A stretch of 64,000 nt of DNA. It comes from Crossiella equi. GTDB taxonomy: Bacteria; Actinomycetota; Actinomycetes; Mycobacteriales; Pseudonocardiaceae. The stretch covers positions 6,123,786 through 6,187,785 of the forward strand of contig NZ_JAGIOO010000001.1 of assembly GCF_017876755.1 (NCBI RefSeq), written 5' to 3'. The position numbers and the translations under genes were made by a program. The notes under the pieces were generated by a model that saw nothing but the letters and a program-made list of their open reading frames with translations, was not told the origin of the DNA and did not search any database. The first letter of the stretch is position 1, and each line of letters opens with the position of its first letter. Shown in pieces: positions 14,935 through 32,657 of this stretch.

Positions 14935-16110
14935 ATGACCAACTGGGACGCTTACAGCCACACTGACATCCACAAGATGATCAATGAAGGCCGCGGGCAC
15001 TACTCGCTCAGCAGCCGGGGGCTGCTCTGGGAGTACCAGGCGAAGCGACTGGACGACATCGGCAACAACGTGCGGAAGGCCTTTGAGGCCGCTGCGGGGG
15101 TTACACAGGGTCGGTCGTTCGACCAGATGCAGGAGCGGGTCTCGCCCGCCTACCAGTGGGCCGAGCAGGCCTCCACGATGGCCGGGCAGGTGCGTTCGGT
15201 CGCCGAGACCAGCACCGGCACTTTCACCGACACCAAGTCGAAGATTGGGCCGCCGGTCCAGGTCACTGAGACCGACAACGCCATCTCCCGTGGCTGGGCC
15301 TGGCTGACTGACGGAATGACCGACAAGCAGGCCCAGCAGGCGCAGGCTGATGATGCGCAGACCAAGGCTCGAGAGACCATGCGCACCTACGAGCGCACGG
15401 TGCTGTCCTCGACCTCCAACTTGCCGGTCTTCACCGCCCCCGACCCGATCGACGTGGGTGTCGGCACCGGTGGTGGCGGCACCACGCAGGTGGGCACCAA
15501 CACCACCACGACCAACACCCGCCAGCACCGTCCCGGCGGCAGTGACAACCAGCGGCCGGGCTTCGCCGACCGCGATGGTGACGGCATCCCGGACGACCGC
15601 GACCCGCGCGACGACCGCAACGTGCCGGACCGCGACGGGGACGGCATCCCCGACGACCGCGACCCGGTCGACAACCGCAACCCCGGCCGCGACCAGGTGG
15701 ACCCGAACCTCGTGGTCACGCCGCCCGTGCAGCCGACCCCGCCGCCGAACCTGGGGATTCCCGTTGGTGGCGGGCCCGGTGTGCCCGGTGGTGGGCCCAT
15801 GAGCGGGCCTGGGTTCGTGGGTGGCATGGGCGGCTTCGGGCCGTCCGGCTCCGGTGCCGCGATGCGGCCCGGGTTCGGGCCCAGCGGTATGGCCGGGGTC
15901 GGCGCCGGTGGGGCCGCCGCGGCCAACGGCGGTGGGTTCGGGCCTGGTGGACGTGGTGGGGCACCCGGCATGGGTGGGCCCATGGGGTCCGGGGCCCGCG
16001 CCGGTGGTGAGGAGGACAAGGAGCACAAGCGGCCTGACTACCTCATCGAGATCGACGACATCTTCGGCGACGGCACCCTGGTCGCCCCGCCCGTGATTGG
16101 TGAGCGTTAG
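14935..16110 (+). CDS. PPE-like ESX substrate with Asp-rich calcium-loop repeats
   Basis: The 391-residue protein has an N-terminal helical domain (about 1-160) typical of Pseudonocardiales PPE-like proteins. A linker follows, then two 20-residue-spaced DRDGDGIPDDRDP units (starting near residues 212 and 232) like thrombospondin type 3 or EF-hand-like calcium loops. Next come a long Gly/Pro/Met-rich segment (about 260-355) and the conserved C-terminal tail IEIDDIFGDGTLVAPPVIGE. It has no signal peptide, as expected for ESX export. It is followed 5 bases later by EspG, the chaperone that binds PPE proteins in mycobacteria. Calcium binding and export are inferred. Confidence 0.75.
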   Translation: MTNWDAYSHTDIHKMINEGRGHYSLSSRGLLWEYQAKRLDDIGNNVRKAFEAAAGVTQGRSFDQMQERVSPAYQWAEQASTMAGQVRSVAETSTGTFTDTKSKIGPPVQVTETDNAISRGWAWLTDGMTDKQAQQAQADDAQTKARETMRTYERTVLSSTSNLPVFTAPDPIDVGVGTGGGGTTQVGTNTTTTNTRQHRPGGSDNQRPGFADRDGDGIPDDRDPRDDRNVPDRDGDGIPDDRDPVDNRNPGRDQVDPNLVVTPPVQPTPPPNLGIPVGGGPGVPGGGPMSGPGFVGGMGGFGPSGSGAAMRPGFGPSGMAGVGAGGAAAANGGGFGPGGRGGAPGMGGPMGSGARAGGEEDKEHKRPDYLIEIDDIFGDGTLVAPPVIGER

Positions 16111-16115
16111 AGCCC

Positions 16116-16910
16116 GTGAGCGTTTCTCTTGACCTCGAGCTCAACTCGTTGGAGTTCGAGGTCCTCTGGGAGCACCTGCAGCTCGGGGACAAGCCGACCG
16201 AGCTGAACACCCTGTCCCACGGGGCCAGTGACGAGGAGCGGGCGCACTTCCGCCGTCGTGCCTGGGACTCCCTGGAGCAGAAGGGGCGTGCCGAGGACGG
16301 CCGGTTGGACGTCGAGCTGGAGGACCTGCTCGGTCTTCTCGCCCGGCCCAACCGGTCGATCGACGTGCGCTTCTCCTGGCGGGTCGGGGAGAACATGGAG
16401 AAGGTCCTGCCCGAGGTCAAGGCGCTGTGCTCGGCCGTCGGCGACACCGGGGTGCTGGCCGTGCACGACGGCGACCGCTACCGCTTCGGCTGGATTCGCA
16501 GCACCGGCCTGGCCCCCGCGGCCGCCGGGCTGCTGCCCCAGGGGCCGCCCGGGCGCATCCCGTCGGTCACCCTGGCCGCCGACGTGCTCGAGGAGGCCGT
16601 CACCCAGGCGGCGGAGCAGGGTCCGCTGTTCCAGCGCATCCTGGTCGGGCGCGGCATCCGGCCCGAGGACGCCAAGCTGCTCTGGGAGATCGGGGACGCC
16701 GACCGCACCCTGTTCGCCCAGTTCGGCGCCACCGCGCGTGACCAGTACGGCCGCAACAACCGGGCCGAGGGCGTGCTCAACGTCTTCGACATCCCGGCGG
16801 GCCGGTGCGCGAGCCGGGAACGCGGCGGCTGGATCAACTTCTTCGGCGCCGACCACCGCAAGGTGGCCGAACAGCTGGACAAGATGCTGCTGGAAGTCGC
16901 GGAACGCTGA
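16116..16910 (+). CDS. ESX secretion-associated chaperone, EspG family
   Basis: Cytosolic chaperone of type VII secretion. In mycobacteria EspG binds the PPE tip of PE-PPE dimers and delivers them to the ESX machine. The 264-residue product begins SLDLELNSLEFEVLWEHL and carries the family's IDVRFSW, VTLAADVLEEAV and DQYGRNN stretches. Its GTG start lies 5 bases after the PPE-like stop. No ESX core genes (eccB-E, mycP) are in the window, so the module must use a machine encoded elsewhere. Confidence 0.85.
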   Translation: MSVSLDLELNSLEFEVLWEHLQLGDKPTELNTLSHGASDEERAHFRRRAWDSLEQKGRAEDGRLDVELEDLLGLLARPNRSIDVRFSWRVGENMEKVLPEVKALCSAVGDTGVLAVHDGDRYRFGWIRSTGLAPAAAGLLPQGPPGRIPSVTLAADVLEEAVTQAAEQGPLFQRILVGRGIRPEDAKLLWEIGDADRTLFAQFGATARDQYGRNNRAEGVLNVFDIPAGRCASRERGGWINFFGADHRKVAEQLDKMLLEVAER

Positions 16911-18260: not shown

Positions 18261-20291
18261 GTGAGCGAAACCGAACTACTGGGCGGCGACGCGGTCGACA
18301 CGACCGCAGCCAGCCCTTCGGCCAATGGCACGGCGACCAAGCGTCGTGGTGGCCTTTCCGGGATGGTGCTCGCCGAGCTGCGTCAGCTCGCCGGTGAGCT
18401 GGGCATCGGCAACACCAGCGGGATGCGCAAGGGCGATCTGATCGCCGCCATCAAGGAGCGGCAGGGCGGTTCGGCGCCGCGCGCCGAGGCTGCCAAGCCA
18501 GCCAAGGCCGAGTCCGGCCAGCTGGCGCTGGGCACCGAGAGTGCTCCCGCGCCCAAGGCCGAGAAGGCGGTGGAGAGCGCCCCGTCGGCGCCCGCCGCTG
18601 CCCCCGCCGCGGAGACCTCCGCGGACGCGGGCGACGCCGGTGGCGACAACGCCAGGCGCAACCGCCGCCGTCGGGCGGCCACCCGTCCGGCAGGCAGCCC
18701 GGAGGGCGGCGCGCGCGAGCGCACCGCCGAGCCCGCTGCCGCCGACAAGCCTGCTGAGCAGCAGGCGGAGCAGCCGGTCGCCGCGGCGACCGAGCAGCGC
18801 GAGAGCAAGCCCGCTGAGCAGCGCGAACAGCGCCAGGAGAGGGGCGAGCGGCAGGACCGCGGCGACCGGGGCGAGCGTGGGGAGCGGGGCGGCCGCAACG
18901 ACCGCAACCGCAACCGGAACGACCGCAACGACCGGGGTGACCGGGGCGACCGCGGCCAGAACCAGAACCAGCCGCAGGGCGTCGAGGACGACGAGGACGA
19001 GGACGGCAGGGGCCGTCGCGGCCGCCGCTTCCGCGACCGCCGTCGTGGCCGTGGCCGTGACGGCGACGGTGGCGGCAACGAGCGCGGTGAGCGTGGCGAG
19101 CGCGGCGACCGTGGTGGCCGGGGCGGTGGCGACACCGAGGTCCGCGAGGACGACGTGCTGCTGCCGGTCGCGGGCATCCTCGACGTGCTGGACAACTACG
19201 CGTTCGTCCGCACCTCGGGCTACCTCGCGGGGCCGAACGACGTCTACGTCTCCCTGTCCCTGGTGCGCCGCCACGGCCTGCGCCGCGGTGACGCCATCAC
19301 CGGCGCGGTGCGCCAGCCGAGGGACGGCGAGCAGCAGCGGCAGAAGTTCAACCCGCTGGTGCGCGTGGACTCCATCAACGGCCTGGAGCCGGACGCCGTT
19401 CGCGGACGCCCGGAGTTCACCAAGCTCACCCCGCTGTACCCGAACGAGCGACTGCGCCTCGAGACCGAGCCGCACATCCTCACCACGCGCGTCATCGACC
19501 TGGTGATGCCGATCGGCAAGGGGCAGCGCGCGCTGATCGTCTCCCCGCCCAAGGCGGGCAAGACCTCGGTGCTGCAGGCGATCGCCAACGCGATCACCAC
19601 GAACAACCCGGAGTGCCACCTCATGGTCGTCCTCGTGGACGAGCGCCCTGAGGAGGTCACCGACATGCAGCGTTCGGTGAAGGGTGAGGTCATCGCCTCC
19701 ACCTTCGACCGGCCGCCGGGCGACCACACCACCGTGGCCGAGCTGTCCATCGAGCGCGCCAAGCGCCTGGTGGAGATGGGCCACGACGTGGTCGTGCTGC
19801 TGGACTCGATCACCCGACTGGGCCGCGCCTACAACCTGGCCGCCCCCGCCTCGGGCCGCATCCTGTCCGGTGGTGTCGACTCCACCGCGCTCTACCCGCC
19901 CAAGCGCTTCCTCGGCGCCGCGCGCAACATCGAGGGTGGCGGCTCGCTCACCATCTTCGCCACCGCGCTCGTCGAGACCGGTTCCACCATGGACACGGTC
20001 ATCTTCGAGGAGTTCAAGGGCACCGGCAACGCCGAGCTCAAGCTCGACCGGAAGATCGCGGACAAGCGCACCTTCCCGGCCGTGGACGTGGACGCCTCCG
20101 GCACCCGCAAGGAAGAGCTCCTGCTCTCTCCGGACGAGCTGGCGGTCACCATCAAGCTGCGGCGCGTGCTGGCGGCGCTGGACGACCAGCAGGCCATCGA
20201 CCTGCTGCTCGACCGCCTGCGCAAGACCCGCACGAACATCGAGTTCCTCATGACGGTCTCCAAGACCGCCCCGGGCTCGAACGACGACTGA
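18261..20291 (+). CDS. rho: Transcription termination factor Rho with large R/G/D-rich insert
   Basis: Hexameric RNA-dependent ATPase/translocase that ends transcription. The 676-residue product is much longer than E. coli Rho (419). A Rho_N domain (LSGMVLAELRQLAGELGI, residues 32-70) comes first. An Ala/Pro/Glu then Arg/Asp/Gly-rich disordered insert fills about 75-295. The cold-shock RNA-binding domain (VAGILDVLDNYAFVRTSGYL, from about 300) and the ATPase with Walker A PPKAGKTS near 428 and Walker B VVVLLDSITRL follow. Such inserts are characteristic of actinobacterial Rho and increase RNA binding. A canonical terminator follows. Confidence 0.97.
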   Translation: MSETELLGGDAVDTTAASPSANGTATKRRGGLSGMVLAELRQLAGELGIGNTSGMRKGDLIAAIKERQGGSAPRAEAAKPAKAESGQLALGTESAPAPKAEKAVESAPSAPAAAPAAETSADAGDAGGDNARRNRRRRAATRPAGSPEGGARERTAEPAAADKPAEQQAEQPVAAATEQRESKPAEQREQRQERGERQDRGDRGERGERGGRNDRNRNRNDRNDRGDRGDRGQNQNQPQGVEDDEDEDGRGRRGRRFRDRRRGRGRDGDGGGNERGERGERGDRGGRGGGDTEVREDDVLLPVAGILDVLDNYAFVRTSGYLAGPNDVYVSLSLVRRHGLRRGDAITGAVRQPRDGEQQRQKFNPLVRVDSINGLEPDAVRGRPEFTKLTPLYPNERLRLETEPHILTTRVIDLVMPIGKGQRALIVSPPKAGKTSVLQAIANAITTNNPECHLMVVLVDERPEEVTDMQRSVKGEVIASTFDRPPGDHTTVAELSIERAKRLVEMGHDVVVLLDSITRLGRAYNLAAPASGRILSGGVDSTALYPPKRFLGAARNIEGGGSLTIFATALVETGSTMDTVIFEEFKGTGNAELKLDRKIADKRTFPAVDVDASGTRKEELLLSPDELAVTIKLRRVLAALDDQQAIDLLLDRLRKTRTNIEFLMTVSKTAPGSNDD

Positions 20292-20310
20292 TACTCGTCA
20301 GTAGCAACAC

Positions 20311-20348
20311 GGCGACCCCGGCTGACCGGCCGGGGTCGCCGCTTTTTG
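20311..20348 (+). terminator. Intrinsic terminator after rho
   Basis: A perfect 10-bp GC-rich stem (20311-20320 with 20331-20340), a 10-base loop and a GCTTTTTG tail. One of the few terminators here with a true U-tract. Confidence 0.9.
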
Positions 20349-20653
20349 TCGCCAACGCCTGCCTCGATTGTGACCGGATCGCGCTGTTGCCCCGACACGA
20401 TCCTTTTTGGGAGTCGAAAAGTCCGCCAGGTTAGCCGATCGCCAACAGTGCTGTCCGCAAGTTGACCACTGTCAGGCGAACGGTTCTCCCTGCATGCACT
20501 AGCCCGGTGAGCCGAACAGTTCCGGACCGATTGGAGGCGTTGTCGTGGTGCGTGGACAAAGGCGTTGCGCCGATTAGGTGACGCCGCAGGTCGTTGCTGG
20601 TTGAACGGCGCACGAGCCAGGTATTTACCTACTGGGAGTGGTGGGCGGGAACG
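20349..20653 (+). other. Intergenic region upstream of the lanthipeptide two-component genes
   Basis: About 300 bases with noticeably lower GC than the flanking genes and no credible ORF. TTGACC at 20462-20467 could be a -35 box, but no matching -10 is clear. CGAACGGTTC and CGAACAGTTC are similar short boxes about 35 bases apart and might be regulator sites. This is the left edge of the extra genes between rho and rpmE. Confidence 0.4.
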
Positions 20654-21853
20654 GTGGAACAGACGTCTAGTGGGAGGCGGCTGTCGGTGCGGGCGCGTGA
20701 GGTGTTGCGGCGGCGTGGCCCCGACGTGCTCCTGATCGGGGTGCTGGGGGCCCTCGACCTGATCGCGCAGTTCCTGGTGCCCGCGGCGCCCTGGCGCCTG
20801 GCAGCGGGCGCGCTGGGCGCCTACGGCGTGAACCTGCCGCTGCTGCTGCGCAGGCGCAGGCCGGTCGTGGTCTTCGTGGTGGTCGGCGCGGTGGTGCTGG
20901 CGCGCGGCGCGATCGGTGCCCCGGAGCTGACCGGCGCGATCCCGCTGCTCATCGCCGCGCACGCGCTCGGCCGCTACGGCGCGCGCAGGCACCGGCCGTG
21001 GGTGGTGTGGGTGGTCGCGGGCTGGGGCGGCGCGCACGCGGTGATCGTCAGCCTGATGTACAGCCAGCACGTGCAGCTCGCGGACTGGCTGGTGGTGGCC
21101 CTCGCGGTGGGCCTGGCCTACCTGTTGGGCAGCAACCAGCACCGCTTCGCCGCGCAGGTCGGCTCGCTGCGCCGCAGCGTGCACCGACAGCGCGAGCGCC
21201 GCAGCCGCGAGGTGAGCAGCGCGGTGGACGCCGAGCGCGAGCGCATCGCGCTGGACCTGCACGACGTGGTGGGCAACCACCTGAGCGCCCTGTCCGTGCA
21301 GACCCACGTCTTCGAGGAGCTGCTGGCCCGGCGCGACCCGCAGGCCGTGCTGGCGGCCAACCAGATCCGCGAGTCCAGCCGCCAGGCCATGACCGAGATG
21401 GTGCGGCTGCAGAACCTGCTGCGCGGCATCGCGGCCAGCCCGGAGGGCGTGGACTGCGGCCCGGAGGGCGTGACCAGGCTGGCCTCGGCGGTGCGCAACG
21501 CGGGCAACGACGTGGAGTTCTCGGTGGCCGAGCTGCCCAGCGGGATGAGTCCTGAGGTCGGTGCGGAGGGCTACCTGGTGTTGCAGGAGGCGCTGACCAA
21601 CGTGGTCAAGCACGCCTCGCCGACCCGGGTGAGCATCGAGGTCGGCGTGGACGAGGGCGCGGACCGGCTGCGGCTGCGCGTGGTCAACGAACCGCCGCAC
21701 GCCGCCCGGCTGCCCTCGCCACCGGGCAGCGGGCTGGGCCTGGTCAGCATGCGCGCCCGGGTCACCCGGCTCGGCGGCGAGCTGCACTCCAGCGCGGAAC
21801 CGGACGGCGGATACGTCGTGGACGCCACGATCCCGCTGCGGAGCGTCTCGTGA
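20654..21853 (+). CDS. Two-component sensor histidine kinase, NarL-type (HisKA_3)
   Basis: Membrane sensor kinase of 399 residues if GTG 20654 is the start. GTG 20687, which has a GGGAGG upstream, and TTG 20594 are alternatives. About five hydrophobic segments span the first 155 residues with little extracytoplasmic loop, suggesting an intramembrane-sensing kinase. ERERIALDLHDVVGNHLSAL holds the phospho-acceptor (His203). LQEALTNVVKHA and GSGLGLVSMRARV are the N and G boxes of the ATPase domain. It overlaps the response regulator by 4 bases. Its place before LanKC suggests that it controls lanthipeptide production. Confidence 0.92.
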   Translation: MEQTSSGRRLSVRAREVLRRRGPDVLLIGVLGALDLIAQFLVPAAPWRLAAGALGAYGVNLPLLLRRRRPVVVFVVVGAVVLARGAIGAPELTGAIPLLIAAHALGRYGARRHRPWVVWVVAGWGGAHAVIVSLMYSQHVQLADWLVVALAVGLAYLLGSNQHRFAAQVGSLRRSVHRQRERRSREVSSAVDAERERIALDLHDVVGNHLSALSVQTHVFEELLARRDPQAVLAANQIRESSRQAMTEMVRLQNLLRGIAASPEGVDCGPEGVTRLASAVRNAGNDVEFSVAELPSGMSPEVGAEGYLVLQEALTNVVKHASPTRVSIEVGVDEGADRLRLRVVNEPPHAARLPSPPGSGLGLVSMRARVTRLGGELHSSAEPDGGYVVDATIPLRSVS

Positions 21854-22527
21854 GCATTCGGCTGCTGCTCGTCGACGACGACGCGGTGGTGCGCGCGGGA
21901 CTGTCCACCCTGCTGTCGCTGCGCGAGGACCTGAAGGTGGTGGGCGAGGCCGCCACCGGGCTCCAGGCACTGGCCAAGGCCGCCGAGCTCACCCCGGACG
22001 TGGTGCTGATGGACGTGCGGATGCCCGAGCTGGACGGCATCGCCGCCACCCGCAGGCTGGTGGGGGAGTGGACCGGGCCCGCACCGCGGCCGAGGGTGCT
22101 CATGCTCACCACGTTCGACTCCGACTTCCACGTCTACTCCGCGCTGGCCGCCGGGGCGAGCGGGTTCCTGCGCAAGGACACCTCGCCCGAGGAGCTGGCA
22201 CACGCCGTCCGCGTGGTCTCCCGGGGGGACGCGATGCTGTCCCCGGCGGTGACCCTGCGGTTGATCGAGCACACCGTGCACCGCATGGTGCAGCCCGATC
22301 CGGCGGTGGCGAAGGGAATCGACCTGCTCGGTGAGAAGGAGGTGGACGTGGTGAAGCTCGTGGCGACCGGCTGGTCCAATGCCGCCATTGCGGAAAAACT
22401 GTCCACCACCGAGTCCTCGGTCAAGAGCAGGGTGACCAGGGTGCTGGCCAAGCTCGGCCTGGAAAACCGCGTCCAGCTGGCCATCTTCGCCTACCGGACC
22501 GGGCTGGTCTCGATTTCCCCGCAGTAA
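21850..22527 (+). CDS. LuxR/NarL-family response regulator
   Basis: Cytoplasmic transcription factor of 225 residues. The receiver domain has LLLVDDDAVVRAG (acidic pocket) and phospho-acceptor Asp55 in VVLMDVRMPELDG. The C-terminal LuxR helix-turn-helix (VDVVKLVATGWSNAAIAEKL, about 158-215) has the recognition helix STTESSVKSRVTRVLAKLGL. It is coupled to the kinase by a GTGA overlap. Its likely target is the promoter region of the adjacent lanKC gene, which contains the dyad at 22555-22586. Confidence 0.93.
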   Translation: MSIRLLLVDDDAVVRAGLSTLLSLREDLKVVGEAATGLQALAKAAELTPDVVLMDVRMPELDGIAATRRLVGEWTGPAPRPRVLMLTTFDSDFHVYSALAAGASGFLRKDTSPEELAHAVRVVSRGDAMLSPAVTLRLIEHTVHRMVQPDPAVAKGIDLLGEKEVDVVKLVATGWSNAAIAEKLSTTESSVKSRVTRVLAKLGLENRVQLAIFAYRTGLVSISPQ

Positions 22528-22554
22528 TGCTCGGGGCAACGATTGCCCGCGACT

Positions 22555-22586
22555 AAAGTTGCGGCCCCGGGCGGGGTCGCGACTTT
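22555..22586 (+). promoter_or_regulatory. Near-perfect 15-bp dyad between response regulator and lanKC
   Basis: AAAGTTGCGGCCCCG (22555-22569) pairs with CGGGGTCGCGACTTT (22572-22586) with two G-T wobbles and a very short centre. It lies 28 bases after the response-regulator stop and 113 before lanKC. It could terminate regulator mRNA or be a DNA operator for the regulator. There is no U-tract, which slightly favours an operator. Confidence 0.45.
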
Positions 22587-22698
22587 GGTGGCAGAAAAGG
22601 TAGACCGCGTGGCGTATTGAGAAAAGATGTGCCCCCGGTAGTGTTCTTTTCGGATCGAGGGGACAGTGCGAATGCGATAAACGGGGAGGTGTGCCGAC

Positions 22699-25254
22699 GT
22701 GGTCGAAGTGGAATACGAACTCTATTGTTTCGTCGATCGCTTCTTCTACGACTCGCCGGCGCACCGCACCCAGGCCGTGGAGCGCTACCCGCTGGTGACC
22801 GCCCCGCTCCCACCGCACTGGCGGCGCGCCCAGCGGGACGTCTGGGTCAGCTACCGGCCACTCGGCGCGCCCACGCCCGCCCAGGGCTGGAAGATCCACG
22901 TCTCCGCGACCCCCGACAGCGCGGGCGAGGTCCTGGACCTGGTCGCCGCCGACTGCCTGCTGCACCGCGTGCCGTTCAAGTTCCTGGACAGCCGCGCCGC
23001 GGTGCTCGCCCACAACGCCAAGTACGCGGCCCGGGGCGCCAGCGGCAAGTTCATCACCCTGTACCCGGCCGACGAGCGCGAGCTCGCCCGCGCCCTGCGC
23101 CGCCTGGACGCGGCCCTGGCCGGGCGCCCGGGACCGTACGTGCTCAACGACCTGCGCTACGGCGACGGCCCGCTGTACGTGCGCTACGGCGGTTTCGCCG
23201 AGCGCTACTGCACCGGCCCGGACGGCGGCCAGGTGCCCGCCATCGCCGACGCGGACGGCACGCTGGTCCCGGACCAGCGCGGCCCGAGCTTCACCCCGCC
23301 GCCGTGGGTGGCGCTGCCCGAGGTGCTGCGCCCGCACCTGGCCCGTCGCCGCGCCCAGTCCGGCCTGCCCTACCGCGTGCTGCGCCCGCTGCACTTCTCC
23401 AACGCGGGCGGCGTGTACCTGGCCGAGGACCCGGACACCGGGGCCAAGGTCGTGCTCAAGGAGGCACGCCCGCACGCCGGGCTGGACGCCGACGGGCACG
23501 ACGCGGTCCACCGGCTGACCAACGAGCACGCGATGCTGATGGCCCTGGCCGGGCTGCCCGAGGTGCCCGCGGTGCTCGGCCGCTTCCGCTGCTGGGAGCA
23601 CGAGTTCCTGGTCCTGGAGCACATCGAGGGCACCCCGCTGGCCACCGAGCTGGTGCACCGCTACCCGCTGGCCGGGGCCGAGGCGGACGAGGCCGCGGTC
23701 CGCGCCTACACCGACTGGGCGGTGGACGTGGTGGCCGCGGTGGAGAAGGCGCTGACCGCGCTGCACCGGCGCGGCATCGTCTTCGGCGACCTGCACCCGC
23801 GCAACATCATGCTCACCCCGGGCGGCGGGGTGCGGCTGCTGGACCTGGAGCTGGCCTCGCCGGTGGCCGAGGGCCGCCGCGCCGCGCTCGGCGCCCCCGG
23901 CTACACCGCACCGCCCGGCGTGGGCGGGTTCGCCGTCGACGAGTACGCGCTGGCCGCCCTGCGGCTGGCCCTGTTCCTCCCCCTGAACTCCCTGTGCGCG
24001 CTGGAGCCCGGCAAGGTGGCCTCGCTGTGCGAGGCCGTGCTGGCCCGGTTCCCGCTGCCCGAGGAGTACGTGCGGCCGATCCTGGCCCACCTCTGTGCAG
24101 GCTCCGGGTTCCCGCCACCCAGCACCCGGGACCCGGTGCCGCCGTTGTTCGGCACCACCGCCGCCGAGCTGGCCGTGCTGCGCGACCGGATCGCCACCGC
24201 GATCACCGCCGGGGCCACCCCGGAGCGCGCCGACCGGCTCTTCCCCGGCGACATCGCCCAGTTCAGCGAGAACGGGCTCGGGCTCGCGCACGGCGCGGCC
24301 GGAGTGCTGTACGCGCTGGCGGTCAGCGGCGCCGGGCGCTTCCCGGCGCACGAGGACTGGCTGCTGCGCGCGCTGGCACGCAGCCGGGGCGGCCGTCCGG
24401 GCCTGTTCGCCGGGCGGCACGGCGTCGCGCTCGCGCTGGCCGAGCTCGGCCATCCCGAGCCCGCGCTGGAGCTGGTCGAGCGCACCGCCAAGGACACCGC
24501 GAGCTGGCCGGGCGTGGACCTGTACGAGGGCAGCGCGGGCATCGGTCTGGCCCTGCTGCGCCTGGGCCGCCGCACCGGCCGGGCCTGGCTCACCGAGTGG
24601 GCGCTGGACCTGGCCGAGCAGCTGGCCGCCCGGGTGCTCGCCGGGACCGCGCGGTTCGGCTCCCCCGGGCTGTCCCGGGGCGGGGCGGGCGCGGCGCTGT
24701 TCCTGTGCCAGACCGCCTCGGCGGGTGGGTCCGAGCGGCTGCTCGACGCCGCCCGGCACGCCCTGCACCGCGACCTGGAACGTGTGGAGTTCAGCGCGGA
24801 CGGCGCCGTCCAGGTGCGCCTGGGCCGCAAGCACCTGCCCTACCTGGCGGTCGGCAGCGCGGGCATCGGCCTGGCCACAGCCGAGCTGCTGCGCCGCCGT
24901 GAGGACCCGGCCCTGCTCGGCGTGCTGCCCGGCCTCCGGCGCGCGCTGTCGGCGGAGTTCACCGTGCACAGCGGCCTGTTCACCGGCCGCGCGGGCCTGG
25001 TGTGCGCGCTCGGCGCGTTGCGCGGGCTGCCCGGGGTGGACGGTGCCGGGCTGGACCGCACGCTGCACCGGCACGTGGCCCGGCTGGCCTGGCACGCGGT
25101 GCCGCACGGCGGTGGGCTGGCCTTCCCGGGCGAGGCGCTGCTGCGCCTGTCCCACGACCTCGCCACCGGCTCGGCGGGTGTGCTGCTCGCGCTGCACACC
25201 GCGGCCACCGGGGCGGTGCCCCTGTTCCTCGACGCGCCCGTGGAGGGGAGGTGA
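22699..25254 (+). CDS. lanKC: Class III lanthipeptide synthetase LanKC
   Basis: Trifunctional enzyme that phosphorylates, eliminates and cyclises Ser/Thr and Cys in a ribosomal precursor. The 851-residue product has an N-terminal lyase-like domain (about 1-225), a Ser/Thr-kinase domain (Lys254 in VVLKEARPH, catalytic Asp364 in FGDLHPRN, metal Asp382 in LLDLELA) and a C-terminal LanC-like cyclase domain (about 515-851, HGAAGVLYA, YEGSAGIGLALLRLG). The cyclase lacks the Cys-Cys-His zinc ligands of LanC and LanL, which defines class III over class IV. GGGGAGGT precedes GTG 22699. The precursor gene follows 8 bases later. Confidence 0.94.
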   Translation: MVEVEYELYCFVDRFFYDSPAHRTQAVERYPLVTAPLPPHWRRAQRDVWVSYRPLGAPTPAQGWKIHVSATPDSAGEVLDLVAADCLLHRVPFKFLDSRAAVLAHNAKYAARGASGKFITLYPADERELARALRRLDAALAGRPGPYVLNDLRYGDGPLYVRYGGFAERYCTGPDGGQVPAIADADGTLVPDQRGPSFTPPPWVALPEVLRPHLARRRAQSGLPYRVLRPLHFSNAGGVYLAEDPDTGAKVVLKEARPHAGLDADGHDAVHRLTNEHAMLMALAGLPEVPAVLGRFRCWEHEFLVLEHIEGTPLATELVHRYPLAGAEADEAAVRAYTDWAVDVVAAVEKALTALHRRGIVFGDLHPRNIMLTPGGGVRLLDLELASPVAEGRRAALGAPGYTAPPGVGGFAVDEYALAALRLALFLPLNSLCALEPGKVASLCEAVLARFPLPEEYVRPILAHLCAGSGFPPPSTRDPVPPLFGTTAAELAVLRDRIATAITAGATPERADRLFPGDIAQFSENGLGLAHGAAGVLYALAVSGAGRFPAHEDWLLRALARSRGGRPGLFAGRHGVALALAELGHPEPALELVERTAKDTASWPGVDLYEGSAGIGLALLRLGRRTGRAWLTEWALDLAEQLAARVLAGTARFGSPGLSRGGAGAALFLCQTASAGGSERLLDAARHALHRDLERVEFSADGAVQVRLGRKHLPYLAVGSAGIGLATAELLRRREDPALLGVLPGLRRALSAEFTVHSGLFTGRAGLVCALGALRGLPGVDGAGLDRTLHRHVARLAWHAVPHGGGLAFPGEALLRLSHDLATGSAGVLLALHTAATGAVPLFLDAPVEGR

Positions 25255-25262
25255 CACCACGA

Positions 25263-25373
25263 ATGGACGTCCTTGACCTCCAGGCGATCGAGCCTGAGGA
25301 GGGCGACGGCCCGGCCGGACCCGCGTTCGGCCCGGCCATGATCAGCACGCTCAGCCTGCTGATCTGCTGGTGA
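25263..25373 (+). CDS. lanA: Class III lanthipeptide precursor peptide (single labionin-type motif)
   Basis: A 36-residue peptide whose frame matches the class III pattern. The leader starts MDVLDLQAIE, with the LDLQ motif recognised by LanKC enzymes, followed by an acidic then Gly/Pro/Ala stretch. The core end AMISTLSLLICW contains S-T-L-S-L-L-I-C, an SxxSxxxC motif expected to give one labionin or lanthionine ring. It resembles the second ring motif of SapB (SSLSITTC). A GGGGAGG ribosome site lies 11 bases upstream. A strong terminator follows 28 bases later. The cleavage site is not determinable; the core is strongly hydrophobic. Confidence 0.9.
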   Translation: MDVLDLQAIEPEEGDGPAGPAFGPAMISTLSLLICW

Positions 25374-25400
25374 ACGACCGCACACCTGGTGTGTGCCATC

Positions 25401-25435
25401 GGGGGATGCTCTCGCCGCGACCGGGAGCATCCCCC
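25401..25435 (+). terminator. Terminator closing the lanKC-lanA operon
   Basis: A perfect 11-bp stem GGGGGATGCTC/GAGCATCCCCC (25401-25411 with 25425-25435) with a 13-base loop, followed by GGCCTTTACC. It separates the lanthipeptide operon from the genes downstream. Confidence 0.8.
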
Positions 25436-26490
25436 GGCCTTTACCTCCCCACCCGGGGCCCGGGTGGGTTGAGCCGGACTCCTTCAAGTTCCTGCGTCCG
25501 CTTCGAGCGGCTTGTGCGTTCCGCGCTGCGGTACGCGAACGCACCGGGTGGCCGGTATCGGTTCGCTGATCCACCGCTCGGTACCCGCTCCACTCGTGCG
25601 CGGGATCGTGCCGCACCGCGCCCGGACCGGCTGCGCCGCTGGTGGCGCGCCGCGCGCCAACGATGCTGATCATGGCCGTGTGTCAGCGGTGGTCGCGCTC
25701 CCCGCGCCGACCGGCGGACTGCCAATCCTGCTGTTGTTCCGCCGGGCGCACTTCCGGTATTCACCGTCGCTCTTCGGGTTCCCTTGACGTGCGAATGGCC
25801 GTCCGCCAATTTCGGTCGGCTGTTCGGTAATGCGCTCCGCGACCACTCGTGCGGCCGGGGAAAGGTGTGCGCCACTCGCCGCCGACTCGCTCTGCCGCCC
25901 ACTCCGCGTCCTGTTTCGGTGGGTGCATCCCGCTGTGATGGGCTGTTCGGCGCACTACTCGATGCGCTGTCCGGCGCAGCCACGGGGGTGTCCGGAGTCA
26001 GTCGGCGGTGTGGGTTCTTCCGGCTCTCGCTCGTCCGGGGGAGAGGGTGCGGTGGGCCGAATGGGCAGCTCGGAGGAGGTTCTCAGGAGTGGCCGGTGCC
26101 GCCTCGGCGGCCGTTCGCCCGGGCTCGCGGCCGACGGCGCTGGTCCGGGCGGGGTCCTCCGCGGTGGGCTGACCGAACGGCGGGATCAAGAAGTCTTATC
26201 CAGCCGGAAGAACGTCAGAAAGTTCCCGTTGTCGAAACACGATGCGGCGGAGGTAATTTGAGTGGGTGTTCCGGCCATTGAACGGAAATGGCGGAGCAGA
26301 AGCGATCAGTGGCGGATCGTGAGAACTGCGGACCGGCGGACCGGGGTGGGAACCCAGTGTCAACCGGTCAACACACAGCGTGAGCTACGTGTACTGCATA
26401 GAAACCCCGGAAGGCAATCGCCCGCGTCCCCTCGGGGATGCGACGGTGGCGTTGCCGGGGTGAAACCGGGCGAGGGGTTGGAGACCAGCG
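25436..26490. other. 1.05 kb stretch without a convincing gene
   Basis: Several open frames exist on both strands (for example 25784-26281 plus and 25441-25983 minus), but their products are Arg/Pro/Gly-rich, lack any recognised motif and do not show actinobacterial third-position GC bias. Composition is less GC-biased than the neighbouring genes. It may hold degenerate remnants of former island genes, plus the 5' region of the adenylation gene (GGAG at about 26480). Nothing is recognised here. Confidence 0.5.
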
Positions 26491-29112
26491 GTGGAACCTG
26501 TGGCAGCCAGGTTGGTGACAGCGAACTCCGTGCGATCCGCGACTGACGTCGAGCAGGACGCGGTGCGGGTCGCCGCGGTGCTGCGCGCCCGCGGCCTGTC
26601 TCCGGGCGACCGGGTGGTGCTCAAGGCGGACAACTCGGCCGCCTACGTCACCGTGCTCCTGGCCCTGGTGCACCTGGACACCTCGATCGTGCTGGTGGAC
26701 CACCGGCAGACCCAGGAGGAGACCGACCGCATCACCGGCTTCGCGCACGCGGGCTGGGCGATCGTGCGCCCCGAGGTCAACCAGGCGCTGGCCGCGAGGC
26801 AGGTCGTGGACCTGGACGCGCTGGTCGCCGAGGCCGAGACCCTGCCGGTGGTGGGCGGCTCGCTGTCCTTCGTGGCCTGGTTCTCCCGCTCGGACGCGCT
26901 CATCGCGTGGTCCTCGGGCACGACCGGCGAGCCCAAGGGCATCGTGCGGTCCGGGAAGTCCTTCCTGGGCAACATCGAGCGCACCCAGCAGCGCATGAAC
27001 TACACCGAGCACGACGTGCTGATGCCGCTGCTGCCCTTCTCCCACCAGTACGGGCTCTCACTCGTGCTGCTGTGGTGGGTGGCGCGCTGCTCGCTGCTGG
27101 TCGCGCCGTACACGCGCCTGGACCACGCGGTCGAGCTGGCCGGGCGGTACCGCGCCACGGTCGTGGACGCGACCCCGGCGACCTACCACACCCTGCTCAA
27201 GCTGGTGGAACGCCGACCGGAGGCCGCGGCCGGGCTGCGCGAGGTGCGCATGTGGTGCGTCGGCGGCGCGCCCCTGGACCGCACGCTGGCGGACAAGTTC
27301 ACCACCGCGACCGGCCAGCCGCTGCTGGACGGCTACGGCTCCACCGAGGTCGGCAACATCGCCCTGGCCGCGCCCGGCAACGCGGTCGGCTGCGGCCAGC
27401 CGCTGGACGGCGTGTCCGTGCGCATCCTGGACGAGGACGGCGCGCCCGTGCCGCCGGGCCAGATCGGGGAGATCCTGGTCAACACGCCCGGCCGGTTCAC
27501 CGGCTACCTGGCCGAGGACGGCTCGGTCGCCGAGCACGCCGACGAGGACTACCGGACCAACGACATCGGCTACACCGATGCCGACGGCAACCTCTACGTC
27601 GTGGGCCGCAAGTACGCGGTGCACCGGATGGGCCACACGCTCTACCCGGAAGCCTTGGCGCGCAAGGCCGAGGAGGCCGGGGCACCGGTCAAGGTGGTCG
27701 CCCTGGACGACGAGCGCCGCGGCAGCCAGCTGGTGTTCGTGGTGGCCGACCCCGAGCTGCGCGAGGCCCGGTGGTGGCGGGAGCGCATCTGCGCGCTGCT
27801 GCCCTCCTACGAGCAGCCCAACCAGGTGCTGGTGGTCGCGGAGTTCCCGTTGAACAACAACGGCAAGCCCGACCTGACCCGGCTCACCGACCTGGCCGCG
27901 GTCCCGCACCCGCAGCGCCTGGCAGCCCTGCGCGCGGTGGCCGAGTTCGTGCGCACCGACCCGCAGCCGCTGATCGACGTGCTCTGCGAGATCTCCAACC
28001 ACAAGGCCGTGCTGGACGAGATCGAGGCCGGGCTGGCGGCACTGGACGGCGCGCTGGAGGAGGTCTCCACCTACCGCCCCGGCCGGGTGCCGAAGATGGC
28101 GGTCTTCATGTCCTCCAACGTGCTCTTCTACTCCTACGTGCTCTACAACCTGATCCCGTCGCTCTACACCGACGAGATCGTGTTCCGGCCCTCCGGCCAG
28201 GTCGCGGGCACCACGAAGAAGCTGCACGAGCTGCTCGCGCCGGTGCACGGGCTGGGCTCGGTCGAGCTGACCACGCTGAGCCAGGCCCAGTTCGTCGAGG
28301 TCCCGGTGGCCGAGGCGGACGTGCTGGTGTTCACCGGCGCCTACGCCAACGCCGAGCAGGTGCGCTCGTACCTGCGCGAGGACCAGATGCTGCTGTTCTT
28401 CGGCCAGGGTGTGAACCCGTTCGTGGTGGCCGAGGGCGCGGACATCGACCTCGCGGTCACCGACGCGGTGCGCATCCGCATGCTCAACTCCGGCCAGGAC
28501 TGCTTCGCACCGGACGTGTTCCTGGTGCACGCGGGCGAGGCCGAGGCCTTCGTGGACCAGCTGACCAAGCGCGTGGCCGAGCTGCGCTACGGCGGCTACA
28601 CCGACCCGGCGGCCGACTACGGCCCGCTGTACTACGACTCGGCCATCGAGGCGGCCGCGGACTACCTGCGGCAGCACCGCGAGCACATCGTCGCGGGCGG
28701 GCGCCTGGACTTCCGGTCCCGGCACCTGGAACCGGCCGTGCTGGTGCGGCCGTACAGCAAGCGGATCACCGTCGAGGAGACGTTCGCGCCGATCTTCAAC
28801 GTGGTCGTCTACCAGAACGCCCAGCAGCTGCGGTCGTTCGTGAACCACCCGACGGTGAACGAGCGGGCGATGGGCGCGATGGTCTACGGCGACGCGCCGG
28901 ACGTGGTCGCGGCGCTGGGCAAGCGGCACCACGTGTGCGTGAACCTGACGGTGCTCGACACCGACGACGGCAACAAGCCGTTCGGCGGGCACGGCATCGC
29001 GGCGAACTACGTCGCCTACCAGGGACAGCGGGTGGCCGAGCCCCTGCTGATCTCCAAGGCCGTCGCCGAGCACCTCCCCGCGGCACGGAAGAACCGGATG
29101 GCCAACGCCTGA
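26491..29112 (+). CDS. Adenylation-aldehyde dehydrogenase fusion (putative carboxylic acid reductase-like)
   Basis: 873-residue two-domain protein. Residues 1 to about 480 form an ANL acyl/aryl-AMP ligase with A3 SSGTTGEPKG (141-150), GYGSTEVGN, and the A10 lysine (Lys459) in NNNGKPDL. Residues about 510-873 form an aldehyde dehydrogenase with catalytic Cys671 in NSGQDCFAPD and an EETFAPIFNVVVY segment. The usual ELGG glutamate is absent (FFGQGVNP at 636-643), as in acylating or acyl-reducing ALDHs. No carrier-protein domain is present. Likely role: activating a carboxylate and reducing it to an aldehyde. The substrate is unknown. The ketosynthase follows 28 bases later. Confidence 0.85.
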   Translation: MEPVAARLVTANSVRSATDVEQDAVRVAAVLRARGLSPGDRVVLKADNSAAYVTVLLALVHLDTSIVLVDHRQTQEETDRITGFAHAGWAIVRPEVNQALAARQVVDLDALVAEAETLPVVGGSLSFVAWFSRSDALIAWSSGTTGEPKGIVRSGKSFLGNIERTQQRMNYTEHDVLMPLLPFSHQYGLSLVLLWWVARCSLLVAPYTRLDHAVELAGRYRATVVDATPATYHTLLKLVERRPEAAAGLREVRMWCVGGAPLDRTLADKFTTATGQPLLDGYGSTEVGNIALAAPGNAVGCGQPLDGVSVRILDEDGAPVPPGQIGEILVNTPGRFTGYLAEDGSVAEHADEDYRTNDIGYTDADGNLYVVGRKYAVHRMGHTLYPEALARKAEEAGAPVKVVALDDERRGSQLVFVVADPELREARWWRERICALLPSYEQPNQVLVVAEFPLNNNGKPDLTRLTDLAAVPHPQRLAALRAVAEFVRTDPQPLIDVLCEISNHKAVLDEIEAGLAALDGALEEVSTYRPGRVPKMAVFMSSNVLFYSYVLYNLIPSLYTDEIVFRPSGQVAGTTKKLHELLAPVHGLGSVELTTLSQAQFVEVPVAEADVLVFTGAYANAEQVRSYLREDQMLLFFGQGVNPFVVAEGADIDLAVTDAVRIRMLNSGQDCFAPDVFLVHAGEAEAFVDQLTKRVAELRYGGYTDPAADYGPLYYDSAIEAAADYLRQHREHIVAGGRLDFRSRHLEPAVLVRPYSKRITVEETFAPIFNVVVYQNAQQLRSFVNHPTVNERAMGAMVYGDAPDVVAALGKRHHVCVNLTVLDTDDGNKPFGGHGIAANYVAYQGQRVAEPLLISKAVAEHLPAARKNRMANA

Positions 29113-29140
29113 CCGGTGGACAACGAAGTGAGAGGAAGCC

Positions 29141-30403
29141 ATGTCGTTGGAAGAGTTCAGGAAGCGGCGCCCCCGGGTCGTCGTGACCGGGTGGGGTGTG
29201 GTCAGCCCGGTCGGCCTCACCGCGGAGGACACCTGGGCCGCGTTCATGGCTGGCCGCAGTGGCATCGGCCCGATCACCACGTTCGACACCTCCATGTTCC
29301 CGACCTCCATCGCCGGTGAGGTCAAGGGGTTCAACCCCGACGACTACATGGCGCGCAAGATCAGCCGCCGCATGGACGGCTTCACGCAGTACGCGGTCGC
29401 GGCGGCCCAGCAGGCCATGGAGTCGGCGAAGCTGACCCTGGACTCGGCCACCGCGCCCCGCACCGGCGTGCTCATCGGCACCGGGTACGGCGCGATGAAC
29501 TACACCCAGGGCGCGGTGCTGGCGCTGCGGGACAAGGGGCCGCGCACCGTCGGCCCGTACCAGGCGGTGACCGGCGCGCACGACTCCGCCACCGGCGAGG
29601 TCAGCCTGATGTTCGGCGCGGCGGGCCCCTCCGCCGCGATCAGCTCGGCCTGCGCGACCGGCACGGACGCGATCGGCAACGCGGCCCGCTGGATCCAGTA
29701 CGGCGACGCGGACATCGTCATCGCGGGCGGCGCGGAGCACAGCATCAGCCCGATCGACCTGGCCTCCAGCTCCAACGCCAAGGCCCTGTCCCGCCGCAAC
29801 GACGAGCCGACCCTGGCCTGCCGCCCCTTCGACGAGGACCGGGACGGCTTCGTCATCGCGGCCGGCGCGGGCGTGGTCGTCCTGGAGTCCCTGGACAGCG
29901 CGCTGCGCCGGGGCGCCCCGATCCTGGCCGAGATCGCCGGGTACGGCGCCACCTCCGACGCCTACCACTGGACCGCCCCGCACCCGGAGGCACTGGGCGC
30001 GCGCCGGGCCATCGGCAAGGCGCTCAAGGACGCGGGCATCGACCCCACCCAGATCGACTACGTCAACGCGCACGGCACGAGCACCACGCTCAACGACAAG
30101 ACCGAGACCTTCGCCATCAAGCAGGTCCTGGGCGAGCACGCCACCAAGATCCCGGTGAGCTCCACCAAGTCGATGACCGGCCACATGATCGGCGCCGCCG
30201 GCGCGGTCGAGCTGATCGCCTGCGCGTACGCCATGCGCACCGGCAAGGTCCCGCCCACGATCAACCTGCACAAGCCGCTGGACGAGGAGATGAACTTCGT
30301 CCCGCACACCCCGCAGGACGCGGACGTCACCTACGCCATGAGCAACTCGTTCGGCTTCGGCGGCCACAACGCGGTCCTGGTGGCCAAGCGCTGGGACGAC
30401 TGA
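29141..30403 (+). CDS. Beta-ketoacyl-ACP synthase, FabF/KAS II type
   Basis: Decarboxylating condensing enzyme of fatty-acid or polyketide-like chain extension. The 420-residue protein has Cys171 in SSACATG, His311 in NAHGTST and His348 in KSMTGHMIGAAGA, a complete Cys-His-His triad. The C-terminal NSFGFGGHN is intact. AGAGGAAG precedes ATG 29141. It is probably co-transcribed with the adenylation-reductase gene, and no ACP, FabD or FabH gene lies nearby, so it may be a specialised rather than the housekeeping copy. A stand-alone housekeeping FabF cannot be excluded. Confidence 0.9.
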   Translation: MSLEEFRKRRPRVVVTGWGVVSPVGLTAEDTWAAFMAGRSGIGPITTFDTSMFPTSIAGEVKGFNPDDYMARKISRRMDGFTQYAVAAAQQAMESAKLTLDSATAPRTGVLIGTGYGAMNYTQGAVLALRDKGPRTVGPYQAVTGAHDSATGEVSLMFGAAGPSAAISSACATGTDAIGNAARWIQYGDADIVIAGGAEHSISPIDLASSSNAKALSRRNDEPTLACRPFDEDRDGFVIAAGAGVVVLESLDSALRRGAPILAEIAGYGATSDAYHWTAPHPEALGARRAIGKALKDAGIDPTQIDYVNAHGTSTTLNDKTETFAIKQVLGEHATKIPVSSTKSMTGHMIGAAGAVELIACAYAMRTGKVPPTINLHKPLDEEMNFVPHTPQDADVTYAMSNSFGFGGHNAVLVAKRWDD

Positions 30404-30564
30404 GACATCGGCGGGTGTTTTCGCTTCCTGAGTGACCTCGCCGCGGTCTCGCCACGCGCGACGCAAGCGTCGGACGTGTCGAGACCGCGGCGAGGTCACG
30501 CGAGAACACAACGGCCAGGTGAGAGGGCGGGGGTGTCGCCTGCGGCGCCACACCACGCCCGGCC
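30404..30564 (+). repeat. Two-copy hairpin repeat element, copy 2
   Basis: Begins right at the ketosynthase stop and aligns with 9149-9322 over its whole length. Arms 30415-30424/30500-30509 and 30432-30451/30480-30499 (20 bp, perfect) with an inner CGACGC/GCGTCG stem form the same long hairpin. Compared with copy 1, one G-C pair has become T-A on both arms (GGGCTCG/CGAGCCC versus GGTCTCG/CGAGACC), and the inner stem has exchanged A-T for C-G. The structure is therefore preserved despite sequence change. Confidence 0.85.
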
Positions 30565-30601
30565 GCACGGATGTCAACGCGCCCGGTCGCGCGGATGTGA
30601 A

Positions 30602-30636
30602 GCGGCACCCCTCCGGGCCTGTGGAAGGGGTGCCGC
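30602..30636. terminator. Bidirectional hairpin terminator
   Basis: A perfect 11-bp stem GCGGCACCCCT/AGGGGTGCCGC (30602-30612 with 30626-30636), a 13-base loop, and a CTCTTCTC tail on the plus strand. It lies between the convergent ketosynthase and small membrane-protein genes. Confidence 0.7.
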
Positions 30637-30662
30637 CTCTTCTCATCAGCAGGGGAGCGGGT

Positions 30663-31067
30663 CTAGGTGCTGATCAGGTGGTCCCTGGTCTCCGCCTCGG
30701 GGCAGCCGTCGTCGAGCTGCCGGAGCCGCTTGAGCGTGTACCCGAGCAGCACCACACACGGCACCCCCAGCGCGACCGCGACCAGTGACGGGATCTCCCG
30801 GCCGTCCAGGGCGACCCCGACCACCAGCAGCGCCAGCAGGTAGGGCCAGCGCAGGCCGGTGCGCTGCCACGGGGCGTGCCAGGCGACGTTGCGGCTGAGC
30901 ACCACGCCGATCGCGGCGGCCGCGCCGAAGGTCCAGCTGAACAGCTCGGTGTCGGAGTTGACCGCGAGCAGGCCGAGGCCCCCGATGCCGACCATCGATC
31001 CGACGACCAGCAGCGGGATGCCCATCCACATCAGCACGGGTAGCCGCCAGCTCGCTGCACACAGCAC
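30663..31067 (-). CDS. Small membrane protein of unknown function
   Basis: 134 residues with about four hydrophobic helices (roughly 9-35, 42-57, 72-88 and 90-110) and a charged C-terminal tail (RLRQLDDGCPEAETRDHL). No family was recognised. It is convergent to the ketosynthase and divergent from rpmE across a 220-base gap, so it marks the right end of the genes placed between rho and rpmE. Codon bias and hydrophobic periodicity support coding. Confidence 0.6.
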   Translation of the reverse strand: MLCAASWRLPVLMWMGIPLLVVGSMVGIGGLGLLAVNSDTELFSWTFGAAAAIGVVLSRNVAWHAPWQRTGLRWPYLLALLVVGVALDGREIPSLVAVALGVPCVVLLGYTLKRLRQLDDGCPEAETRDHLIST

Positions 31068-31209: not shown

Positions 31210-31288
31210 CACGGGTCGGAATAAGGCTCCGGTTCACCCCGTTGAACGCACCGTGGGGACCCGGCGGCCCCTGAGAAAGGACGAACCA

Positions 31289-31501
31289 GTGAAGAGCGGT
31301 ATCCACCCCGACTACGTGGTCACCCAGGTGAACTGCGGTTGTGGCAACAGCTTCACCACCCACAGCACCAAGAAGAGCGGTCAGATCACGGTTGAGGTCT
31401 GCTCCAACTGCCACCCGTTCTACACGGGCAAGCAGAAGATCCTCGACACCGGTGGCCGCGTGGCGCGGTTCGAGGCGCGCTACGGCAAGCGCAGCAAGTA
31501 G
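31289..31501 (+). CDS. rpmE: 50S ribosomal protein L31, zinc-binding (C+) form
   Basis: 70-residue ribosomal protein of the large subunit. Cys16, Cys18, Cys38 and Cys41 (VNCGCGN and VCSNCHP) give the zinc ribbon of the C+ type, unlike the Zur-regulated C- paralogue induced by zinc starvation. GTG 31289 with GAGAAAGGA upstream is the start; the longer frame to 31253 is not needed. It is followed by a hairpin and prfA, the conserved rpmE-prfA-prmC order. Confidence 0.95.

Positions 31502-31583: not shown

Positions 31584-32657
<1,074 letters not shown>

Follow-up and report, generated by a model that had tools for sequence, protein, structure and literature searches.

SapB-type peptides, which have two rings, drive aerial growth in Streptomyces, where ramR is not known to have a paired sensor kinase; the formation of avionin involves a LanD-like flavoprotein. 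Among the described loci, ramCSAB/ramR and amfTSAB/amfR of Streptomyces are class III lanthipeptide loci of the SapB/AmfS type, and two motifs are common in the subgroup studied there (PMC13380574). Within the genus Crossiella, the clusters described as restricted to two cave strains include a predicted class III lanthipeptide cluster, in which one core gene has 50.2% similarity to a synthetase of Streptomyces curacoi (PMC9415966). Here, a stretch of 64,000 nucleotides from Crossiella equi (contig NZ_JAGIOO010000001.1, positions 6,123,786 to 6,187,785; hereafter the window) was analyzed, in which genes for a sensor kinase, a response regulator, a class III synthetase (LanKC) and a short precursor peptide (lanA) lie between rho and rpmE. 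Because this locus is present in all five Crossiella genomes, the cave-strain cluster is probably another one. No publication on the rho-rpmE locus of Crossiella was found in the open-licence literature, which was searched mostly at listing level. The locus is a genuine, conserved SapB-type lanthipeptide gene set with ordinary chemistry and an unusual layout: it departs from the usual in having one ring motif and not two, its own sensor-regulator pair, and no usual export pump.

An intact synthetase and a one-ring precursor

In the LanKC of the window, a single polypeptide carries a lyase, a kinase and a LanC-like domain, and it reaches 986 bits with the family model NF038151 (cut-off 575); the class IV synthetase model does not reach its cut-off (395.9 bits, cut-off 650). 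An earlier note on this DNA had proposed a class III lanthipeptide locus, and the domain and family models that matched over cut-off bear this out. Residue roles for the lyase were taken from ThurKC (PMC10604976). The ThurKC lyase residues map to K65, H67, K94, K108, K117, D151, R162 and R194, all of which are kept; K65, H67, K94, K117, D151 and R162 are identical in 50/50 other aligned LanKCs, and K108 and R194 in 49/50. Kinase residues K254, D364, N369 and D382 are kept as well. Therefore an inactive kinase or lyase, a possibility that the earlier note had raised, was rejected. Additionally, the alignment-mapped zinc positions (ThurKC S726, F770 and D771) are A717, F761 and T762, with no Cys or His. 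The zinc-less cyclase pointed out previously is thus real but not an oddity, as LanKCs in general are described as lacking cyclase zinc ligands (PMC10604976).

The precursor, MDVLDLQAIEPEEGDGPAGPAFGPAMISTLSLLICW, consists of the leader MDVLDLQ, a variable middle part, and a single SxxSxxxC motif (STLSLLIC) followed by W. It matches PF19402 (RamS; 32.1 bits, cut-off 24.3) and NF033212 (SapB/AmfS; 28.2 bits, cut-off 25). Across the five Crossiella genomes leader and core are conserved; the last ten residues, ISTLSLLICW, are kept in 5/5, and the base changes in this part are synonymous only. The small open reading frame, whose conservation the earlier note had made a point on which its proposal depended, is therefore conserved in all five.

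Two tandem SxxSxxxC motifs were not found, as each of the five Crossiella precursors has one. The neighbourhood of LanKC was searched for precursors at 51 loci (designated by L and a number), with none listed at L057-L060, L168 and L176. The locus set used for precursor, exporter and kinase counts combines the best rows of the LanKC search with ligase hits and so is not random, some loci share a genus, and neighbouring genes may be missed in some fetched stretches shorter than 19.5 kb at contig ends. SapB-like precursors at the compared loci mostly carry two motifs, and one-motif precursors outside the Crossiella rho locus were seen at L063, L066 and L090; a single-motif precursor is uncommon, but not unique. 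The Crossiella precursor is thus a one-ring variant and not a standard SapB. Precursors at L084, L088 and L092 end in SGLSLLICH (second ring), near the Crossiella core STLSLLICW, and the simplest story is that the first ring was lost.

A quick LanKC tree was built with midpoint rooting and Shimodaira-Hasegawa approximate likelihood-ratio test (SH-aLRT) support only; of 53 sequences collected 51 were kept, L168 and L176 being too short, and L128 and L129 are the same gene. The Crossiella rho LanKCs fall in a 13-row fork (SH-aLRT 100) with L058, L061, L063, L077, L083, L084, L088 and L092, among which L058, L061 and L077 have long branches.

Insertion site and conservation

The order rho, kinase, regulator, LanKC, precursor, ligase/dehydrogenase, FabF-like gene, small gene, rpmE and prfA is identical in the four other Crossiella genomes. 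In the window, the genes from the kinase to the precursor are all on the plus strand, as the earlier note had read them. For comparison, 20 loci were taken from 41 non-Crossiella genomes with a rho match, each representing another genus (19 from the same family and one from the same order). Kinase, regulator, LanKC, ligase and FabF-like gene were without match at all 20 rho-rpmE loci (E up to 1e-5, at least 35% identity), and the rho-rpmE spacing was 131-2057 bases at 19 loci and 7723 bases at the remaining one. A match to the small minus-strand gene was obtained at 9/20. The insertion proposed between rho and rpmE is therefore syntenic in 5/5 Crossiella and absent at 20/20 other-genus loci. 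Because the genes in between have no match at those loci, the insertion spans about 20292 to 30650, beyond the 4.8 kb of the earlier note. Its description of the locus as compact is open to doubt, as the ligase-dehydrogenase and FabF-like genes lie in this insertion too.

Among 297 family genomes, a kinase match at E up to 1e-50 was found in five, which are the five Crossiella. Class III synthetases are common in the same family (157/297 genomes have one that passes the curated cut-off, and 176 have one at E up to 1e-60). The regulator is 93-94% identical in other Crossiella, the window LanKC matches those of Crossiella sp. SN42 and S99.2 at 74-75%, and the LanKCs of the other Crossiella rho loci differ from it by about 25%. 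The 31 bases ahead of the kinase start (20616-20646) are identical in the five genomes.

Control elements and the hairpin after lanA

The proximity of kinases and regulators to LanKC was surveyed at 52 loci with LanKC by tblastn (matches above 60 bits, so that distant relatives are missed). A kinase or regulator within 1 kb of LanKC was found only at the four Crossiella relatives. At L067, L069 and L090, kinase and regulator are both 4-7 kb from LanKC, and at L088 and L092 a regulator lies less than 4 kb away. Similarly, L084 has a LuxR-type regulator about 3.7 kb from LanKC, which was overlooked by the survey, and at L049 (Actinomadura chibensis, outside the 52) a match to the C-terminal part of a regulator lies immediately upstream of LanKC. 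It is thus ordinary for a regulator to be close to LanKC, and the adjacent sensor kinase stands out; the view that two-component control is unusual here is sustained in that a sensor kinase within 1 kb of LanKC occurs only in Crossiella among the loci sampled. The hydrophobic N-terminal part of the kinase suggests a membrane location.

Tandem operator-like sites, GCGACTAAAGTTGC (22549-22562) and GCGACTTTGGTGGC (22579-22592), lie 30 bp apart, and a site pair of the pattern GCGACTNNNGTNGC precedes lanKC in 5/5 Crossiella. The host genome, a single contig of 9.44 Mb, has 19 exact sites, and the only close pair is the one before lanKC. Because the reversed control pattern is commoner (54 genome occurrences) than the exact site (19), single sites are not enriched and the conserved pair alone is notable. 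The pattern was not found ahead of the ligase gene, and exact copies in the window, on both strands, occur only before lanKC.

Downstream of the precursor, positions 25374-25460 fold at -45.9 kcal/mol (z -3.94). The terminator claimed there stands as a strong hairpin, but it has no clear T run and was not listed by the terminator scan. A 47-nt block (25390-25436) is identical in 5/5 genomes, loop included, with poorly conserved flanks. The 37-nt hairpin is present as one copy with 0 mismatches in each of the five Crossiella genomes and absent from 21 other genomes (up to 3 mismatches). A repeated element was rejected as its origin, the hairpin being single-copy in each Crossiella genome. The invariant loop exceeds what a terminator needs, which in five close genomes is only a hint.

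Export and leader removal

Strong matches to both queries, RamA and RamB of L084, were obtained at 24 of the 28 loci that lie outside the Crossiella rho site and have a SapB-like precursor (the misses are L061, L077, L086 and L090). None of the five rho loci of Crossiella gave such matches. Additionally, when RamA, RamB and a prolyl oligopeptidase of sister loci served as tblastn queries, nothing in the whole window matched (E up to 1e-8). The absence of export genes that the earlier note had reported therefore extends, for RamA/RamB, to the whole window, and is unusual within the loci sampled. The same note had remarked on a missing peptidase. The prolyl oligopeptidase query was indeed unmatched, and no peptidase was among the Pfam matches of the neighbour genes tested, other peptidase families not having been searched in the window. 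However, this is ordinary, because actinobacterial class III clusters are described as usually lacking a protease (PMC7268733). M1-type proteases encoded outside the cluster have been described (PMC10885120), and in the genome of the window 5 of 6 M1 peptidase matches are over cut-off.

Acyl ligase-dehydrogenase and FabF-like genes

Of the 297 family genomes, 56 have a match to the ligase at E up to 1e-90. The ligase tree has 69 rows (the window and 68 loci); loci whose best piece was below 250 bits or short were dropped, including L073-L076. In this tree, the window ligase is sister (support 100) to a Crossiella cassette without LanKC that comprises ligase, dehydrogenase and a thiamine pyrophosphate (TPP) enzyme (L139, L140, L189-L191). 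The paralogous cassette in the same genome as the window (L139) also holds a FabF-like gene. Related cassettes at L130, L131 and L137 lie beside an aminotransferase-class (oxoamine synthase-like) gene.

Of the 64 ligase loci in the tree that are not at the rho site, 11 have a LanKC beside the ligase (L129, L132-L136, L143, L145, L168, L171 and L176), as does a second Crossiella locus (L073-L076). These 15 loci belong to seven genera (g1, g2, g19, g21, g24, g25 and g33). All 15 have a GNAT-like match and 12 a FabF-like gene, which is not in the stretches of L134, L145 and L171, and the precursors listed there end in SxxSxxC. GNAT and acyl carrier protein (ACP) gave no match at the Crossiella rho loci L053-L056, and GNAT none among the window genes scanned; three PF02441 queries for the LanD-like flavoprotein, taken from other LanKC loci, had no match in the window. 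In our view, the ligase/FabF cassette and the lanthipeptide genes came together independently. A lipid tail on the peptide is possible but unsupported.

A recurring cluster was observed at L132, L133, L135 and L136 (g25), L134 and L145 (g33), L171 (g19) and L073-L076 (Crossiella). It contains LanKC, GNAT, an acyl ligase-aldehyde dehydrogenase and an R2-like di-iron protein (unmatched at L171), with at least two short candidate precursors per locus that end in SxxSxxC, for instance PGSTVSNNC. No LanD-like flavoprotein match was found in the fetched stretches. The cluster looks to be a class III lanthipeptide family that is lipid-tailed and has no avionin.

Features of the region

The features between rho and prfA are collected in Table 1. 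The terminator scan placed a terminator-like hairpin downstream of rho (20310-20341), and the 1.1-kb gap between lanA and the ligase has three open frames with no Pfam match. At 14935-16910, upstream of thrB and rho, a type VII secretion-like pair is formed by a PPE-like protein (PF00823, 26.9 bits, cut-off 26) and, after it, an EspG-family protein (PF14011, 182.7 bits). Two more LanKC loci, L057 and L058, are in the same genome as the window; at L057, genes for a PF02441 flavoprotein and a GNAT-family protein lie immediately upstream of LanKC.

Table 1. Features from rho to prfA, in window coordinates.
Feature	Position	Strand	Remarks
rho	18261-20291		
Sensor histidine kinase	20654-21853	+	HisKA_3, HATPase_c (Pfam)
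NarL/LuxR-type response regulator	21850-22527	+	Response_reg, GerE; start overlaps kinase stop
Tandem operator-like sites	22549-22592	+	Upstream of lanKC; kept in 5/5 Crossiella
Class III synthetase LanKC	22699-25254	+	RamC_N 260 bits, Pkinase, LANC_like; NF038151 986 bits
SapB/AmfS-type precursor lanA, 36 aa	25263-25373	+	PF19402, NF033212 over cut-off
Invariant 47-nt block	25390-25436	+	Long hairpin at 25400-25436; identical in 5/5 Crossiella
Acyl-AMP ligase fused to aldehyde dehydrogenase-like domain	26491-29112	+	PF00501, PF00171
FabF-like beta-ketoacyl-ACP synthase II	29141-30403	+	TIGR03150 548 bits, cut-off 493.75
Small gene	30663-31067	-	No Pfam match
L31 leader RNA	31223-31269		Ahead of rpmE
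rpmE	31289-31501		
prfA	31584-32657		After rpmE

Proposed pathway and alternative explanations

With good confidence, though short of certainty, the genes that Crossiella carries between rho and rpmE are read as a class III lanthipeptide locus of the SapB/AmfS (ram-like) type. In the proposed pathway, the sensor kinase would phosphorylate the NarL-type regulator, which would bind the tandem GCGACT-NNN-GT-N-GC sites and switch on lanKC-lanA. By the chemistry of the family, LanKC would bind the MDVLDLQ leader and phosphorylate S28, S31 and possibly T29 of the core, sites that were assigned from the sequence, before eliminating phosphate and closing one C-terminal ring onto C35 as a lanthionine or labionin. 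The hairpin may end or protect the lanA message. The leader would be cut by a protease encoded elsewhere, perhaps a genomic M1 metallopeptidase, and the hydrophobic one-ring peptide may exit through an exporter other than RamA/RamB or act at the membrane. By analogy with SapB, the product is likely a surface-active, morphogen-like peptide.

Several observations weigh against this interpretation or limit it. The precursor scores only 3 to 8 bits over the cut-offs, and the conservation partly mirrors shared ancestry, as the five genomes represent one genus. The operator-like sites were spotted by eye in the alignment, and regulator binding to them is putative. ThurKC R610 and D667, which are implicated in labionin formation (PMC10604976), are replaced by Y609 and R660 in the window LanKC. 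As these columns are variable among aligned LanKCs, the sequence does not discriminate between the two ring types, and the Crossiella ring may be either, an Sx2Sx3C motif yielding either lanthionine or labionin (PMC7268733). As to export, the 12 genomic matches to sister-clade RamA (E up to 1e-20) are only 29-36% identical, and thus no dedicated RamA orthologue is evident in the genome. Finally, the next fork out in the LanKC tree (28 rows, support 90) unites the window group with ligase-adjacent lipid-type LanKCs, not with the remaining two-ring loci.

That last fork, by which the two groups adjoin, bears on whether the product could be a lipidated, lipolanthine-like lanthipeptide, in which the one-ring peptide would bear a fatty acyl or alkyl group made or delivered by the ligase-dehydrogenase and FabF-like enzymes. 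Such a product would fit the acyl genes being on the same strand and in the same insertion as the lanthipeptide genes in 5/5 Crossiella, and homologous ligases being beside LanKC at the 11/64 loci and L073-L076, with FabF-like genes at 8/11 and L073-L076. It is nonetheless unlikely, because the window LanKC itself lies outside the ligase-adjacent group, the nearest relative of the window ligase is in a cassette without LanKC, and the GNAT gene of all 15 ligase and LanKC loci has no match at L053-L056, where ACP is likewise unmatched. Furthermore, 1.1 kb and a strong hairpin part lanA from the ligase, the operator pair is only before lanKC, and the core is SxxSxxxC and not the SxxSxxC of lipid-type loci. 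Membership in the lipolanthines is similarly unlikely: the ligase tree opposes it, as does the lack of a GNAT and of a flavoprotein, and the LanKC tree, with its outside but adjacent placement, is not decisive. A further conjecture, in which a fatty chain attached by the ligase-dehydrogenase and FabF-like enzyme takes the place of the lost half of SapB and a two-component switch controls the resulting lipid-tailed morphogen, exported without RamA/RamB, is a long shot.

The gap, the hairpin and the operator placement rather suggest separate control, and we lean, without great assurance, towards two unrelated cassettes in one insertion site: a ram-like lanthipeptide locus and a duplicated fatty acid activation/elongation pair with its own product. 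At L139, in the same genome, a paralogue of the ligase is accompanied by a TPP enzyme and a FabF-like gene, which agrees with this arrangement, although the two cassettes are together in all five genomes and similar genes accompany LanKC elsewhere. The arrangement is compatible with the SapB/AmfS-type assignment as the best explanation. The single ring motif and missing RamA/RamB could instead mark a ram cluster in decay, which has lost one ring as well as its exporters and no longer makes an exported peptide. This appears quite improbable, since the genes are open and full-length, lyase and kinase residues are intact, core changes are synonymous only, and elements are invariant in 5/5 genomes though the other Crossiella LanKCs differ from that of the window by a quarter; moreover, one-motif precursors stand beside RamA/RamB at L063 and L066.

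Comparison with known systems

The SapB/AmfS-type locus of Crossiella resembles lipolanthines and lipoavitides (lanthipeptide-lipid hybrids) in having fatty-acid type genes near LanKC, but unlike them it has no GNAT or LanD-like flavoprotein match and no SxxSxxC core, and its ligase is in another group. It also resembles the two-ring loci L084, L088 and L092 of other Pseudonocardiaceae, which have a LanKC of the same group and, as second ring, S-G-L-S-L-L-I-C in place of the Crossiella S-T-L-S-L-L-I-C. Unlike Crossiella, these carry RamA/RamB and the first ring, and rho was not seen there. Like the ram and amf loci, the locus has LanKC next to a RamS-type precursor with an LDLQ leader and SxxSxxxC core, together with a NarL-type regulator. 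It differs from them in having one motif versus two, in lacking RamA/RamB, and in that its regulator forms a pair with a sensor kinase. If nature has a one-ring version under a sensor kinase of its own, this would help to tell which part of SapB is required. With the exporter missing, the exit route of such peptides becomes a testable question, and the adjacent sensor kinase offers a case for tracing the signal that turns on a SapB-type peptide.

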